Source: an uncultured Collinsella sp.
GTDB lineage: Bacteria > Actinomycetota > Coriobacteriia > Coriobacteriales > Coriobacteriaceae
Assembly: GCA_900554135.1 (NCBI GenBank)
Contig: USFU01000018.1
Location: 1 to 17,708 of the forward strand
Length of the DNA stretch: 17,708 nucleotides
Reading direction: 5' to 3'
Shown: positions 1,048 through 5,461 of the stretch, piece after piece
Position numbering within the stretch: the first letter of the stretch is position 1
How the letters are laid out: each line of letters starts with the position of its first letter
The notes under the pieces: model-generated
Told to the model about the DNA's origin: nothing
What the model saw: only the letters and a program-made list of their open reading frames with translations
Databases searched by the model: none
Made by a program: the position numbers and the translations under genes

Positions 1048-2349
1048 ATGCAGCGACAGCTAATGGACGAACTCATCGCTTGGAAATCTAGGGCAAACCG
1101 CAAGCCCCTCCTGCTTAAGGGGGCCCGCCAGACGGGAAAAACCTGGCTTCTCAACGAATTCGCAGGCCAGCAGTATCAAAACGTCATCCGTTTTGACTTT
1201 ATGCTCGAACCGGGCGCACGTTCGCTGTTCGACGGAAGCCTTGACCCCAAACGCATCATCTCCCAGATAGAGCTCCTGCACGGCCAGACTATAACGCCGA
1301 CAGACACGCTCATCATCTTCGACGAAATCCAAGAGGCACCGCGTGGCATCACCTCGCTCAAATACTTCAACGAGCTGGCGCCGGAATACCATATCGTGGC
1401 AGCCGGCTCCTATATGGGGCTCGCGCTCCGACGCGAAAACGAGTCGTTCCCCGTCGGCAAGATCGACCAGCTCACCATGCGCCCCATGGGGTTTGTTGAG
1501 TTCGTTCGTGCCGTCGATGGCGATCCACTCGCAGATGCCATCCTTGCCGCAGACATGGACCTGCTGGCAAACGTTTCCGAAAAGCTCGAGCGCCTGCTCA
1601 AGGAATACCTCGTTGTCGGTGGCATGCCAGAAGTTGTCTCCGCTTTCGCCGCCTCCCACGATTTCATCGAGGCCCGCAGGCTTCAGCAGCAAATCATCGA
1701 AGCTTACGAATCCGATTTTGGCAAGCATGCGCCAGCCCGCATCGTCGAGCGCATGAGGCTGGTTTGGAAATCCCTTCCCGGCCAGCTCGCAAAGGAAAAC
1801 AAGAAGTTCGTCTACGGCGCGCTTCGTCCTGGGGCGCGCGCACGCGATTTTGAGGAAAGCCTCCAGTGGCTCATGGACTACGGAATCGTTCATAAGGTAC
1901 CACGTGTTTCCGCCCTAAGAGCACCGCTCACAAGCTACGAGGATCTCTCGGGCTTCAAGCTGTTCTGCATCGACACCGGCATCCTCGGAGCACTCTCCGG
2001 CCTCTCGCCAGCCATTGTTCTGAACGGGCCCGCTGTTTTTACGGAGTTCAAAGGCTCGCTGACCGAGCAATACGTCGCACAGGAGCTTTTGCTCCAAGGC
2101 AATACCCCCGCGTATTGGTCATCCTCCTCCGGCAATGCAGAGACTGACTTTGCCGTCGACCATGCGGGGACCGTGCTTCCGCTCGAGGTCAAGGCGGCAG
2201 AGAATCTCAAAGCAAAGAGCCTGAGGATTGCCTGCGAGAAGTTCAAGCTCGAGCGCTGCGTGAGAACATCGTTAGCGGCATATAGAGACGAAGGCACGCT
2301 CGTCAATATTCCGCTCTGGGAGATTGGGCAAATCGACAAGCTGGCATAG
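1048..2349 (+). CDS. AAA family ATPase with C-terminal DUF4143 domain
   Basis: The protein has 433 residues. Walker A GARQTGKT is at 25-32, Walker B TLIIFDEIQE at 87-96, and a sensor-like AAGSYMG at 118-124. The C-terminal part carries ETDF at 365-368 and LEVKA at 379-383, the D...ExK arrangement of the PD-(D/E)xK-like fold usual in DUF4143 proteins. No membrane segment is seen. These ATPases are common and often strain-variable in gut bacteria; their role is not established, and defence or toxin-like functions are only proposals. The start is supported by AGGGGG at 1038-1043. The gene stands alone between galT and the convergent lac operon, flanked by direct repeats and preceded by tandem dyads. 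It uses AGA/AGG arginine and ATA isoleucine codons several times, unlike the nearby PTS genes, which is consistent with acquisition by transfer. The family is firm, the function unknown. Confidence 0.88.
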   Translation: MQRQLMDELIAWKSRANRKPLLLKGARQTGKTWLLNEFAGQQYQNVIRFDFMLEPGARSLFDGSLDPKRIISQIELLHGQTITPTDTLIIFDEIQEAPRGITSLKYFNELAPEYHIVAAGSYMGLALRRENESFPVGKIDQLTMRPMGFVEFVRAVDGDPLADAILAADMDLLANVSEKLERLLKEYLVVGGMPEVVSAFAASHDFIEARRLQQQIIEAYESDFGKHAPARIVERMRLVWKSLPGQLAKENKKFVYGALRPGARARDFEESLQWLMDYGIVHKVPRVSALRAPLTSYEDLSGFKLFCIDTGILGALSGLSPAIVLNGPAVFTEFKGSLTEQYVAQELLLQGNTPAYWSSSSGNAETDFAVDHAGTVLPLEVKAAENLKAKSLRIACEKFKLERCVRTSLAAYRDEGTLVNIPLWEIGQIDKLA

Positions 2350-2372
2350 GCGCTGTGGAGGGGGTGCCCCGT

Positions 2373-2406
2373 AAGGAGTGTCCCAAACTGCCGGCAAAAA
2401 AGGAAC
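2373..2406 (+). repeat. 34-bp direct repeat, right copy
   Basis: This is the second copy of the 864-897 sequence, beginning 24 bp after the ATPase stop codon, in the same orientation and again containing TGCCGGCA. Together the copies delimit about 1.5 kb holding one gene and its upstream repeats. Confidence 0.7.
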
Positions 2407-2465
2407 GTCTCTATCTGCCGCATTCCCGAAGCAAGGCGACGCCGATGTTTTGGCAACGGCAGCGA

Positions 2466-2605
2466 GCGGGCCGCATTTGAGACAAGGTGACGTGAAACGA
2501 AAGGGCGCTGACCTTCTGGTCGCGCCCTTGAAGTTGAACGTCAGATTGTCCAAATGCGGCCCGCGCAGCGTCGGCTGGTTACGGCGTTTGGCAAAACGCC
2601 GTAAC
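2466..2605. ncRNA. Structured intergenic element, copy A (candidate RNA)
   Basis: A long interrupted hairpin forms from nested helices: 2466-2479/2551-2564 (14 bp), 2481-2484/2547-2550, 2488-2493/2538-2543, 2496-2498/2533-2535, 2501-2508/2522-2529 and a tip 2510-2513/2518-2521 with loop TTCT. A second hairpin, 2578-2589/2594-2605, ends one base before the lacC stop codon. Copy B at 4794-4932 keeps the internal-loop positions and the tip while most helices change sequence on both sides. The internal loops are purine-rich on the plus strand (GA opposite GA, AGG opposite GAT, GA opposite GAA), which hints at plus-strand function, but the lacC transcript would make the complement. There is no T-run, so it is not a typical terminator. 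It could belong to the Collinsella-1 candidate RNA motif, which I cannot check here. Confidence 0.55.
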
Positions 2606-2606
2606 T

Positions 2607-3542
2607 CTAAAGTTCGGTCACCTCGACGCTGTTGTAGATCTCGTCCCAGCGGTCCATGACCAGGTGGCCGGTCTTGGGATCCATGGCATTGAGCTTGCCA
2701 CAGGTATTGGCAGTCTTGAGCACGGTGACATCGTCGGCGCCCGCAGCAATGGCATGCGCAAAGCCGGCGATGGTCGAGTCACCGGAACCCGTCGCGTTCA
2801 CAGCCGCAATCGCGGGCGTCTTGGCGCGGAACGCGCGGCCCTCATGGAAGCCCACCGAACCGGCAGCGCCCATCGAGACGACGACCCAGGGAATACCGGC
2901 AAAGCGGCCATCGGCGGCAAGCGCCTCGCGCAGGGCATCGACATCATCGGTCGTAAAGGACGTACCCAGCAGGCCGTTAATCTCGGTCAGGTTGGGCTTC
3001 ACGAGCTCAGGCTTAGCGTCAGATTCCAGCGCAGCCTCCAGCGATGCACCCGAGGTGTCGAGCAGCACCTTGGCGCCCGCCTCCTCGGCGATCTTGACGA
3101 GCTCGGCATAGTAGCCAGCATCGACGCCGCGCGGCAGCGAGCCCGAAAGCGTCACAACATCCGCCTTCGCTGCAAGCTCGGCGAACTTAGCCGTAAAGGC
3201 CTCGAGCTCGGCCGGGGCGATCTGCGGACCGCTCTCCAAAAGCTCGGTCTGATTGCCCTCGTGCAGGATATTCAGGCAAATGCGCGTCTCACCGGCGATG
3301 GGCACAAAGTCGTTCTTGACGCCGTCGGCATCCATAAGCTCAGCCATATAGGCACCCATGTGGCCGCCGAGCAGGCCGGTCGCGAGCACGTCGTCGCCCA
3401 GCTGCAGCAGCACACGGCTCACGTTGAGGCCCTTACCGCCAGCGGTCTTTTCGGGCGTCACGCGGTTAACGTCGTCGATGATCAGCTTGTCGAGTTGATA
3501 GCGCGTATCGATCGACGGGTTCATGGTAACGGTCAGAATCAT
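2607..3542 (-). CDS. lacC: Tagatose-6-phosphate kinase (PfkB family)
   Basis: This 311-residue sugar-phosphate kinase is of the ribokinase/PfkB family and is expected to phosphorylate tagatose-6-P to tagatose-1,6-bisP with ATP. Visible motifs are GGKGLNVSRV at 35-44, SGSLPRG at 133-139, KPN at 182-184 and NATGSGDS at 249-256, with D255 as the catalytic base and the GSG as anion hole. The open frame extends to 3584, but AGGAG sits six bases before the ATG at 3542 and the protein then starts MILTVTMNPSID as in the family, so that start is chosen. It is the last gene of the lacA-lacB-lacX-lacC run. 1-Phosphofructokinase is the close alternative from sequence alone; the lacAB neighbours favour LacC. 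Confidence 0.87.
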   Translation of the reverse strand: MILTVTMNPSIDTRYQLDKLIIDDVNRVTPEKTAGGKGLNVSRVLLQLGDDVLATGLLGGHMGAYMAELMDADGVKNDFVPIAGETRICLNILHEGNQTELLESGPQIAPAELEAFTAKFAELAAKADVVTLSGSLPRGVDAGYYAELVKIAEEAGAKVLLDTSGASLEAALESDAKPELVKPNLTEINGLLGTSFTTDDVDALREALAADGRFAGIPWVVVSMGAAGSVGFHEGRAFRAKTPAIAAVNATGSGDSTIAGFAHAIAAGADDVTVLKTANTCGKLNAMDPKTGHLVMDRWDEIYNSVEVTEL

Positions 3543-3558
3543 ATTGAACTCCTGTTCC

Positions 3559-3578
3559 GGGGCGGCATGACCCGCCCC
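3559..3578 (-). other. Intergenic hairpin between lacX and lacC
   Basis: A 7-bp GC-only stem (3559-3565 with 3572-3578, loop 3566-3571) lies in the 53-bp gap between the lacX stop and the lacC start, ending just before the lacC Shine-Dalgarno. No T-run follows, so an mRNA stability or translation-tuning hairpin fits better than a terminator. Confidence 0.5.
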
Positions 3579-3595
3579 AAACATACGATAACTCG

Positions 3596-4477
3596 TTAAA
3601 GGATCTCGATCTCAAAGCCGCGGGTAACGGTCTCCCCCGGCTTGGCAACCAGGCAGCCACGCTTGTGCTCCAGAATATCGTCCTCGTCGGAGCAGGTGGA
3701 CAGGCCGCCCCACGGTTCAACAGCCACAAAGTCGCCCTCGGGCTTGCTCCACACAATCAGGTACGGCATATCGGGGAACGTCAGGCGCACGCCCTTGTCC
3801 TCAGTTTTCTTGGTCAGCGTAACCACGCGGCTCTCAAGCACGTCAAAGATGGTCTCCGCGAAGTCGAAGAGTTCGTGGGTAAGCGGCAAGTCGTGGCCGA
3901 CCATCGGGTTCTTGCTGCGATGCTCAACATCAATCAGGCCCGTCGAGGGAACGGCAGTACACAGCTCGTCGGCCTCGCGCTGCTCAAAACGGAGCTCATA
4001 GTCGTCATAGGACTCACCCTCGTCGAGCGGGCACTTAAAGCCGGGGTGACCGCCCACAAAGAATGGCATGTCCTCGGTGCCCTCATTGGTCACCTCGTAG
4101 GACACGTTCACCTTTTCCGAATCGATCGTGTAACGAGCAACGATCTTAAACGGATACGGGTACTGCTCGAGCAACTCGGCATGGTCGGCAGAGCTTAGGC
4201 TCAGCGCAACCATGTTGTCGCTCTGTTCCTCGAGCTTCCACTCCTGCTTGCGCGCAAAACCGTGGCGGGCGAGCTTTACCTCGCGGCCGCCCATGGTCAT
4301 TGCGTGACCGTCACGAAGGCCGCCGCAGATCGGGAAGCAAATGGGTGCCTGGCCCGACCAGACCGCCGGGTCGCCCTGCCACAGGTACTCGCGACCGTTG
4401 GCTTTAATCGAAGTGAACGATCCGCCAGCCGTGCTCAGTGCCACACGAATAGAACCGTTATCAAGAACAAACTCCAT
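3596..4477 (-). CDS. lacX: Aldose 1-epimerase family protein, LacX type
   Basis: This 293-residue protein of the galactose mutarotase superfamily resembles the LacX/YihR branch often found at the end of lac operons. Expected catalytic residues are visible: H72 in ARHGFAR, H144 in VGGHPGFKCP and E254 in VAVEPWGG. It probably interconverts the anomers of a hexose or hexose-6-phosphate to feed the isomerase or kinase; the true substrate of LacX is not settled. The frame opens from a GTG at 4495, but AAGGAG lies nine bases before the ATG at 4477, so that start is preferred. It lies between lacB (459 bp upstream) and lacC (53 bp downstream). The long upstream gap suggests it may have its own promoter or be affected by the structured element in that gap. 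Confidence 0.85.
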   Translation of the reverse strand: MEFVLDNGSIRVALSTAGGSFTSIKANGREYLWQGDPAVWSGQAPICFPICGGLRDGHAMTMGGREVKLARHGFARKQEWKLEEQSDNMVALSLSSADHAELLEQYPYPFKIVARYTIDSEKVNVSYEVTNEGTEDMPFFVGGHPGFKCPLDEGESYDDYELRFEQREADELCTAVPSTGLIDVEHRSKNPMVGHDLPLTHELFDFAETIFDVLESRVVTLTKKTEDKGVRLTFPDMPYLIVWSKPEGDFVAVEPWGGLSTCSDEDDILEHKRGCLVAKPGETVTRGFEIEIL

Positions 4478-4793
4478 GGGAATCTTCTCCTTCACATATC
4501 ATCTTGCACGATCCATTGCGAACGCCGTGCCTTTAGCACAAAGGTAATGAGGCGGCGCCGCACGCAAAAGAACAATGCACGCCAAGCCCGCCAAGCCAAT
4601 TGGGCTGATAGAAAACTGACCCGCGCCCCATTACAGAAACGCGAGCCGTCAATTGAAAAGCTGCAGAATGCCGAGTACCGCCAAGAGCGAAGCACACAAG
4701 CTCAGCAAGCAAACGTGTTATCGGAGCAGCTTACTGAACCAGAAAGCTTCGCAACAACAGGGGCGACCCCACAGGTCAGCTCAACGTCAGCGA
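4478..4793. other. Upstream half of the lacB-lacX gap, no clear feature
   Basis: I see no gene in this non-coding part of the 459-bp gap. On the minus strand it would be the leader or promoter region of lacX. It holds a small hairpin (4530-4534 with 4540-4544) and a GC palindrome GCGGCGCCGC around 4552-4561. A TTGACG occurs on the minus strand near 4647-4652, but no -10 box lies at a proper distance. The rest of the gap is the structured element at 4794-4932. Confidence 0.4.
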
Positions 4794-4932
4794 GAAGCCA
4801 GCTGGCGAGGCAAGGTGCCGTGAAGCGAGGCGGCATTGACCTTCTGGTCATGCCGTCGAAGCTGAACGGCAGATTGCCCGTCAGATGGCTTCGCAGCGTC
4901 GACGCGTTACGCGGTTTGGAAAACCGCGTAAC
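4794..4932. ncRNA. Structured intergenic element, copy B (candidate RNA)
   Basis: This is the homologue of the element at 2466-2605. Helices: 4794-4800/4886-4892, 4809-4812/4875-4878, 4816-4821/4866-4871, 4824-4826/4861-4863, 4829-4836/4850-4857 and tip 4838-4841/4846-4849 with loop TTCT. A final hairpin, 4906-4917/4921-4932, ends four bases before the lacB stop codon. Relative to copy A, the third helix changes TGACGT/ACGTCA to TGCCGT/ACGGCA, the next outer helix GACA/TGTC to GGCA/TGCC, and the 8-bp helix below the tip changes almost wholly on both strands while staying paired. The unpaired AGG/GAT, GA/GA and GA/GAA loops and the TGACCTTCTGGTC tip are unchanged. This pattern indicates selection on the fold. 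Confidence 0.55.
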
Positions 4933-4936
4933 CTCC

Positions 4937-5461
4937 TTAGTCGTGATACTCGCCGCGGTCCCACTTCTCGAGGAACTCGTCAAAGAAGTGCGGGTCAGCC
5001 TGAGCCTCGGCGTCGGCCTTATTGCAGGCATCGATCTTGGCGATCAGGGCATCGTGCTCGGGGGTCTTCTCGTAGGGCTCCTCCAGGAAGGCAAGCATGA
5101 TATCGGCCATCAGGAACTCGCCGGTGATCTTGCCGCCAAAGCCCACGATGTTGGCATTGAGCTCGCGACGGGCATACAGGGCAGAGGTCATGTCGCGGAC
5201 CAGGGCGCAGCGGGCGCCGGGAACCTTGTTGACGGCGTTGGTGATGCCGATGCCGGTACCGCACAGGGCCACGCCAAAGTCGGCCTTGCCGCTGGCAACA
5301 GCCTCGCCCACGGCCTTACCGTAGATGGGATAGTGCGTACGGGTGTGGCTGTAGGTGCCGCAGTCGAGCACCTTGTAGCCAGCCTGCTCCAGGCGGTCGG
5401 CCAGATAGATCTTCTCGTCCGTAACGATATGGTCGCAACCGATTGCTATGGTCTTCTTCAT
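4937..5461 (-). CDS. lacB: Galactose-6-phosphate isomerase, LacB subunit
   Basis: This 174-residue member of the RpiB/LacAB family pairs with LacA to convert galactose-6-P to tagatose-6-P. Diagnostic stretches are [10 protein letters not shown] at 8-17, HTRTHYP at 39-45 and the active-site [11 protein letters not shown] at 65-75, with C67 as the expected general base. The length matches LacB (about 171) rather than RpiB (about 150). The start has AAAGGA ten bases upstream. It lies 63 bp after lacA on the same strand and is surely co-transcribed with it. A structured element begins right after its stop codon. Confidence 0.93.

Follow-up and report, generated by a model that had tools for sequence, protein, structure and literature searches.

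What is the hairpin-forming sequence that stands directly 3' of both lacC and lacB in an uncultured species of Collinsella, a genus of the human gut? The two copies in question (A and B; Table 1) lie in a 17,708-nt stretch of contig USFU01000018.1 (GenBank assembly GCA_900554135.1; hereafter the window), and comparison with related genomes identifies them as members of a dispersed, structured family that was previously unlisted in Rfam. Most copies abut a stop codon in one orientation and fold best on the template strand of the abutting gene; tentatively, we regard the family as a mobile palindrome.

Hereafter, "plus" denotes the strand antisense to the abutting gene (the + strand of the window) and "sense" the opposite strand. 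The element is ~146 nt long and consists of an imperfect rod and a 28-nt hairpin (HP1). The rod comprises, in order, an outer stem, a 2x2 GG/GA loop, 6 bp, a GA/GA loop, 3 bp, a GA/GAA loop, 8 bp, a bulge, and a GACC-UUCU-GGUC tip; downstream of it stand GCAGCGTCG, a few bases, and then HP1 (GTT...AAC). Upstream, many f2 copies have the flank CGCAGGTTGGCGTAGTAAGT in place of CGACGCCGATGTTTTGGCAACGG, and ~25 nt ahead of the element are conserved in f2 (of the two families compared throughout, f1 contains Collinsella and f2 is probably the Eggerthellaceae). Folded as RNA, the + strand reaches -98.6 kcal/mol (z -12.3) for copy A and -92.8 kcal/mol (z -8.9) for copy B, and the - strand -89.0 kcal/mol (z -11.8) and -76.8 kcal/mol (z -7.4); among 200 shuffles per copy, none folds as well as the real + strand sequence. 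Rod length is near-constant, with 135 of 142 rods from five f1 and f2 genomes measuring 113-117 nt including the boundary words, in a length table that is bounded by the limited range that the rod finder accepts. Pairing of CGACGC with GCGTCG further downstream, which would form an additional stem, is inconsistent across the alignment, and this stem was dropped. HP1 was also considered as an independent repeat; nearly all of the 60 listed among 190 flagged rows contain a rod (by eye), and since HP1 is alike on both strands, a count of HP1 alone is unusable.

Two copies are too few to prove covariation, and many were therefore used. An alignment of 25 copies (A2), picked for diversity from 53 parsed copies plus the two window copies and given a structure by hand, has 94.6% of its cells paired, compared with 75.6% after shuffling, and both-sided changes at 33 of 52 pairs; pairing is 29-39% when the 3' partners are slid. 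The corresponding values for a 78-row alignment (A5; matches at E <= 1e-6 in 74 hand-chosen sources) are 94.8% and 66.3%, with compensatory double changes at 51 of 52 pairs and 32-38% pairing in slid controls. The A5 rows were aligned to the model, and are hence biased towards it; they are not independent, and one (L184, + strand) shows the element from its opposite strand. Covariation in both alignments, across two families, supports the view that selection acts on the fold, as the initial annotation had argued from the two window copies. That annotation also located both elements correctly (the model ends are slightly wider), including their position directly 3' of lacC and lacB, and its helices and constant loops hold, with its AGG/GAT loop now refined to a 2x2 loop, GG/GA, that has A-U and U-A as closing pairs; further copies occur in related genomes, where the stems are likewise paired.

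By blastn with copy A against 21 relatives, the genus itself gives matches in 11 of its 13 genomes, the eight other genera none; matching genomes contain 1-34 matches each, a count that covers both strands and includes some cases of the palindrome matching itself. In one genome (G011), three places are 97% identical to copy A. A covariance model, which the initial annotation had proposed to build from the two copies, was built from the 25-copy alignment (R1) and matches at least 35 of 149 Coriobacteriia genomes; these represent 15 of 78 genera and belong to three families within one order. At E <= 1e-6, a model built from the 78 rows of A5 (R2) matches at least 11 of the 296 genomes scanned across the phylum, every one of them from that order; these counts are lower bounds, up to 21 (R1) or 10 (R2) candidates having been scored per genome. 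Fuller scans give 33 matches in G156 and 40 in G106 (E <= 0.01), and 48 in G088, 40 in G149, and 56 in G092 (E <= 1e-4), totals that include short fragments and some double readings. An Rfam scan of the window and of 10 loci with copies yields nothing at the elements. There is no match in phage records, and the sole match in plasmid records is C. aerofaciens "plasmid 6". The record concerned (NZ_OY725717.1; G008 C6, 899,693 bp) bears chromosomal genes such as the lac operon, and is probably a misnamed part of the chromosome. In IMG/VR, a loose flank pattern retrieves at least 120 stretches, and among the 80 made into loci the best model match has an E-value of 0.1; the tip 19-mer gives two matches, which by our estimate is about chance level. 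No description of the family was found in the literature on motifs and repeats of Collinsella, Eggerthella, and Coriobacteria, subscription papers and supplements lying outside that scope, nor is the family mentioned in the accessible parts of PMC8040213, PMC2864571, PMC5371416, PMC2229807, PMC1590033, PMC7771070, and PMC2727003.

The copies are placed at the ends of genes. Of 154 copies from five genomes, 89 have the start of HP1 within -5 to +1 nt of a stop codon (open frames of at least 60 codons), or 86 if the best-scoring frame alone is considered; at 14 control offsets from -300 to +400, the count is 0-8 at 13 and 25 at +16. The set consists of 30 of the 33 matches in G156 (two opposite-strand duplicates and one HP1-only match omitted), 34 of the 40 in G106 (short fragments omitted), and, mostly the best-scoring, 25 of 40 in G149, 30 of 48 in G088, and 35 of 56 in G092. 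The peak at +16 is real, because it reflects a class of f2 copies whose frame runs into HP1 and meets its stop codon (TGA, TAG, or TAA) in the loop; the left arm of HP1 thus supplies the final four codons (giving VPFA, VPSA, or VPLS, for example, at the C-terminus). A stop codon inside the HP1 loop is seen, for example, in L083, L360, L372, L413, L371, and L390. Judged from their translations, the abutting genes are presumably pyrE, tyrS, purC, rpoD, rplS, rplX, frr, and others. By a crude frame analysis, neighbouring genes are tandem at 18 and convergent at 11 of 30 loci in G156, and at 24 and nine of 34 in G106; 12 of 14 upstream genes of G008 recur in the G156 set, and f1 and f2 share only two gene families. 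Opposite-strand open reading frames stop at the other end of the element at 31 of 154 loci, a figure given little weight because the conserved f2 flank word TAGTAAG supplies stop codons to such frames. In six copies (L106, L368, L420, L210, L414, and L363), the 75 nt ahead of the full element hold an older HP1, accompanied by the core word CGACGCTGC or part of it, so that this hairpin separates the element from the stop codon; the arrangement looks like the landing of a new copy behind an old one. The gap between rplX and rplE contains the element in G106 and G049, other hairpin-like sequences in G092, G073, G088, and G028, and nothing obvious in G149 (by eye). A separate conserved block, ATGACCCC...GGGACGCAGGGTCGGAAATCCTGCGTTTAATTCATCGAAAGGA, lies ahead of the rplE-like gene (L103, L506-L511), whole in five f2 genomes and partial in two more, and is possibly a ribosomal-protein leader.

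The fold has a preferred strand. When rods are folded alone with RNA parameters, plus is the more stable strand in 164 of 166 copies (51/52 in f1, 113/114 in f2), by a mean of 8.3 kcal/mol in f1 and 16.7 kcal/mol in f2, and with DNA parameters in 165 of 166 (51/52 and 114/114). The constant mismatches that read GA/GA on plus read UC/UC on sense, and in f2 there is also a conserved tandem, U.G/G.U on plus (in 77 and 67 of 114 copies) and CA/CA on sense. Outside this tandem, plus-type and sense-type wobbles in the f2 outer stem stand at ~82:37, summed over up to six classes listed per position; the count with the tandem, 188:29, is inflated by its inclusion. In the model alignment, plus and sense wobbles number 54:32 in f1 and 63:7 in f2 (tandem included). 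HP1 has no strand preference (GU 6, AC 8). The preferred strand also has a prevailing relation to replication: the gene strand implied by the element is co-directional with the fork in 35 of 36 cases in G106, 38 of 40 in G149, and 26 of 30 in G156, compared with 211 of 302, 139 of 247, and 229 of 325 background genes (Fisher p 8e-5, 3e-7, and 0.04), such that plus is mostly the leading-strand template. The background genes come from 20 stretches per genome, each of 20 kb, and were identified with a simple frame rule; the origin was placed at dnaA (in G156, the best match below the family cut-off), with the terminus assumed opposite, and GC skew agrees with the fork direction. This count used 36 of the 40 matches in G106 (short fragments omitted) and all 40 in G149; G088 and G092 were judged by eye.

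Individual sites turn over. Rods with a neighbour at least 95% identical in their own genome number 13 of 33 in G092, six of 28 in G156, two of 29 in G106, none of 29 in G088, and none of 23 in G149. In the C. aerofaciens group, 19 lac loci were compared: 12 have an element at the lacC end, of three rod types (by eye), and seven have none there; at the lacB end, four have a full element, four have one truncated by deletion, and 11 have none (cuts judged by eye). In L119 and G008, the rod at lacB is of a type that is common among f2 copies, and it lies between similar flanks. For 23 orthologous pairs from the G156, G008, and G012 sets, which overlap in sites, 12 have rods no more than 0.83 identical next to upstream coding DNA that is 0.85-0.98 identical, and the remaining 11 have rods 0.90-1.00 alike.

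The best explanation, held tentatively, is a non-autonomous mobile palindrome of the Coriobacteriales whose folded template strand is recognised, attC-like and REP-like in its working but belonging to neither group. A recombinase or transposase would bind this strand, the template of the abutting gene, in its folded form, most likely as single-stranded DNA. The orientation would keep the hairpin off the lagging-strand template and so limit loss of the element, which, once in place, may function, or be tolerated, as a spacer hairpin after the stop codon. A bolder version, which is rather unlikely, would make the copies genome-wide attC-like single-strand sites behind ordinary stop codons, with a non-integron recombinase recognising the folded template strand, the leading-strand template limiting loss, and rod types being exchanged in the manner of cassettes.

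The likeness to known systems is partial. attC sites lie behind cassette genes. Their folded bottom strand is recognised, and lies on the leading-strand template in 25 of 30 sedentary arrays (PMC5371416); at 57-142 nt, they keep their structure although their sequence is poorly conserved (PMC2727003). With its stability preference for the template strand, the element would resemble them in having a folded single strand as the recognised form, and it likewise keeps its fold while its sequence varies; it differs in occurring as single dispersed copies behind core genes, without cassette arrays, and in having the additional HP1. The attC R-box GTTRRRY occurs at chance level in the window and, within the two window copies, only at 2533-2539 in the rod of copy A, and the integron integrase profile TIGR02249 scores above cut-off in none of 30 genomes; because both R boxes and integrase are wanting, the element is not an attC. 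REP and ERIC sequences are dispersed palindromes of the same kind as Correia/NEMIS, RUP, and Rickettsia palindromic elements. The latter are ~100-160 bp long, possibly mobile, and foldable as RNA (PMC2229807). The element shares with all of these its many dispersed hairpin-forming copies, near-identical ones of which occupy separate places in three of the five genomes compared, but most of its copies are fixed at stop codons in one orientation, and it evolves compensatorily across families and prefers the template strand; unlike REP/BIME with RAYT, it is not tied to a Y1 transposase. For a comparison with miniature inverted-repeat transposable elements, no clean empty site was obtained, and no partner element was noticed, a systematic search for one not having been made. 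A group II intron or retroelement was rejected, since RVT_1 is missing from many element-rich genomes. Among the structured candidates from a screen for RNAs of the human microbiome are palindromic ones that have no predicted terminator and may be REP-like (PMC8040213); in its main text, to which the comparison is confined, the single mention of Collinsella concerns a 51-bp candidate that lies upstream of L7/L12.

Several observations weigh against a mobile palindrome. Certain sites have been retained in more than one genus and show compensatory changes, which suggests use of the element at the site: at one orthologous site, behind a gene that we take to be purC from its C-terminus and whose frame terminates inside the HP1 loop, four f2 genomes (G088, G092, G106, and G149) carry a single rod type with base changes, which implies descent in place besides dispersal. 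Many of the 23 orthologous pairs also differ in HP1 and in the 40 nt behind the rod, so that exchange is not limited to the rod. Among the unoccupied lacC and lacB alleles and the rplX-rplE gaps examined, there is no target duplication and no clean pre-insertion site. Several element-free lacC and lacB alleles instead retain a piece resembling the left arm of HP1 (such as GTTACGGCG after the lacC stop codon in L110 and L126); they look like deletion products, and because of this sequence at their start they are read as losses, not as untouched sites. The wobbles of f1 are near even (plus 32, sense 23, at outer-stem positions 0-13) and reversed at positions 14-15 (9:36), where the ungapped register begins to fail, and the U.G/G.U tandem of f2 would fit RNA equally or better. 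Co-direction with the fork is weak in G156, and may partly reflect the fact that core genes are co-directional anyway. No recombinase or transposase could be tied to the element with Y1, RVT_1, and integron integrase profiles in the 30 genomes. The Y1 transposase domain PF01797 is present in 15 of these, yet absent from seven of the eight scanned element-rich f2 genomes (G028, G073, G088, G092, G127, G139, and G149); RVT_1, present in 10, does not track the element, and is absent from G156, G008, G092, G149, and other element-rich genomes; and below the integron integrase cut-off there are weaker tyrosine-recombinase matches in all 30.

The main rival, in line with the initial annotation's alternative of a 3'-end or processing element of the lac mRNA, is a 3'-end or intercistronic mRNA hairpin like REP, ERIC, and NEMIS RNA, by which the sense transcript would be protected or its cistrons separated or processed; we consider this improbable, though worth serious attention. 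It accords with the position of HP1 next to the stop codon on the sense strand, with the tandem loci of G106, 11 of the 24 having a possible downstream start within 48 nt, and with an rplX-rplE gap that holds either the element or other hairpin-like sequences; moreover, sense RNA still folds, at about -64 kcal/mol, and HP1 is indifferent to strand. The rod argues the other way: it is less stable on sense in all but two of the 166 copies, its conserved mismatches there are UC/UC and, in f2, CA/CA, and the f2 wobbles outside the tandem favour plus. The greater stability of the plus fold would suit a family of antisense RNAs transcribed from plus and acting via the rod, as would the conserved f2 flank and the loops, since GA/GA and tandem U.G/G.U are motifs that form stably in RNA. 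Such an RNA is nevertheless unlikely: transcripts would oppose most abutting genes as well as the replication fork, TTTT follows HP1 within 15 nt on plus in one of 154 copies, and a sigma-70 consensus scan finds no promoter-like site at 2340-5000 of the window or around an f2 copy (L097), other promoters being possible. Of the initial annotation's suggestion of an RNA read antisense to the lac operon, then, the preference for plus stands, in rod stability and in the GA/GA and U.G/G.U pairs, and the plus-strand RNA finds no sigma-70-like site; a specific tie to the lac operon falls away, copies being found behind other genes as well. Nor is the element Collinsella-1 RNA (RF01700), which had also been suggested and is listed for Actinobacteria and the human gut (PMC2864571): RF01700 has no match in the window, and across four genomes has two matches in G088 and a weak one in G106, none at an element.

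A transcription terminator would likewise place a hairpin directly behind a stop codon, and TTTT follows the rod within 15 nt on sense in seven of 154 copies. The same tract follows HP1 on sense in none of the 154, a consensus scan finds no terminator-like site at either window copy or at the L097 copy, and one copy lies between rplX and rplE, all of which makes termination a very improbable function. Palindromes can also be corrected by template switching, and matched stems might therefore arise by chance or mutation without selection on the fold. This account scarcely deserves credence given mismatches conserved at fixed places, a near-constant length in two families, a single preferred strand, and placement at stop codons.

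Table 1. Positions of the two elements and the adjoining genes in the window.
Feature	Position	Strand	Basis and remarks
Copy A, whole	2460-2605	+	RNA model match, 164.8 bits, E 4.7e-30
Copy A, 5' flank CGACGCCGATGTTTTGGCAACGG (one Collinsella form)	2437..2459	+	Recurs ahead of the rod in many f1 copies
Copy A, rod (boundary words CAGCGA and GCAGCGTCG)	2460..2574	+	Model match and fold
Copy A, HP1 GTTACGGCGTTTGGCAAAACGCCGTAAC	2578..2605	+	12-bp stem; double changes at 12/12 pairs (78 rows)
lacC-like hexose kinase	2607..3584	-	Open reading frame; relative in NZ_OY725717.1 annotated as hexose kinase near lacB/lacA; complement of stop codon at 2607-2609, 1 nt past HP1
Copy B, whole	4788-4932	+	RNA model match, 148.9 bits, E 6.7e-27
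Copy B, 5' flank CGACCCCACAGGTCAGCTCAACGT	4764..4787	+	CAGGT form of the flank
Copy B, rod	4788..4902	+	Model match
Copy B, HP1 GTTACGCGGTTTGGAAAACCGCGTAAC	4906..4932	+	Covaries with copy A and further copies
lacB	4937..5461	-	Open reading frame; lacB annotation of relative in NZ_OY725717.1; complement of stop codon at 4937-4939, 4 nt past HP1

Other repeats were noted near the element. At element-free lacC ends (L110, L126, L116, L123, L125, and L146), another palindrome, GAGCGTGGATAATCTCCC...GGGAGATTTTCCACGCTC or a variant of it, stands directly 3', and is apparently a second repeat family. REP-like repeats, perhaps linked to Collinsella Y1 transposases, are found at 863-900 and 2373-2412 of the window (AAGGAGTGTYCCAAAYTGCCGGCA) and elsewhere (TAGTCATTGGGGACGTTC...), and similar ones lie downstream of many copies. 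Just upstream of an AAA ATPase gene at 1048, the window also contains three direct repeats, CACATT(A/T)TTCGATGGAAA, at 921-1006 with a 33-base spacing (921, 954, and 987).

Collinsella and its relatives have, at the ends of core genes, a strongly covarying structured element that had not been listed. Three rules, namely placement at stop codons, a single orientation, and a fold on the template strand, hold for most copies, and each needs a cause; under either reading, the data on strand and orientation open the question to testing. If the element acts in mRNA, it would be a shared 3'-end device; should a recombinase instead take the folded single strand as its substrate, sites of recombination would stand at gene ends throughout a bacterial order.

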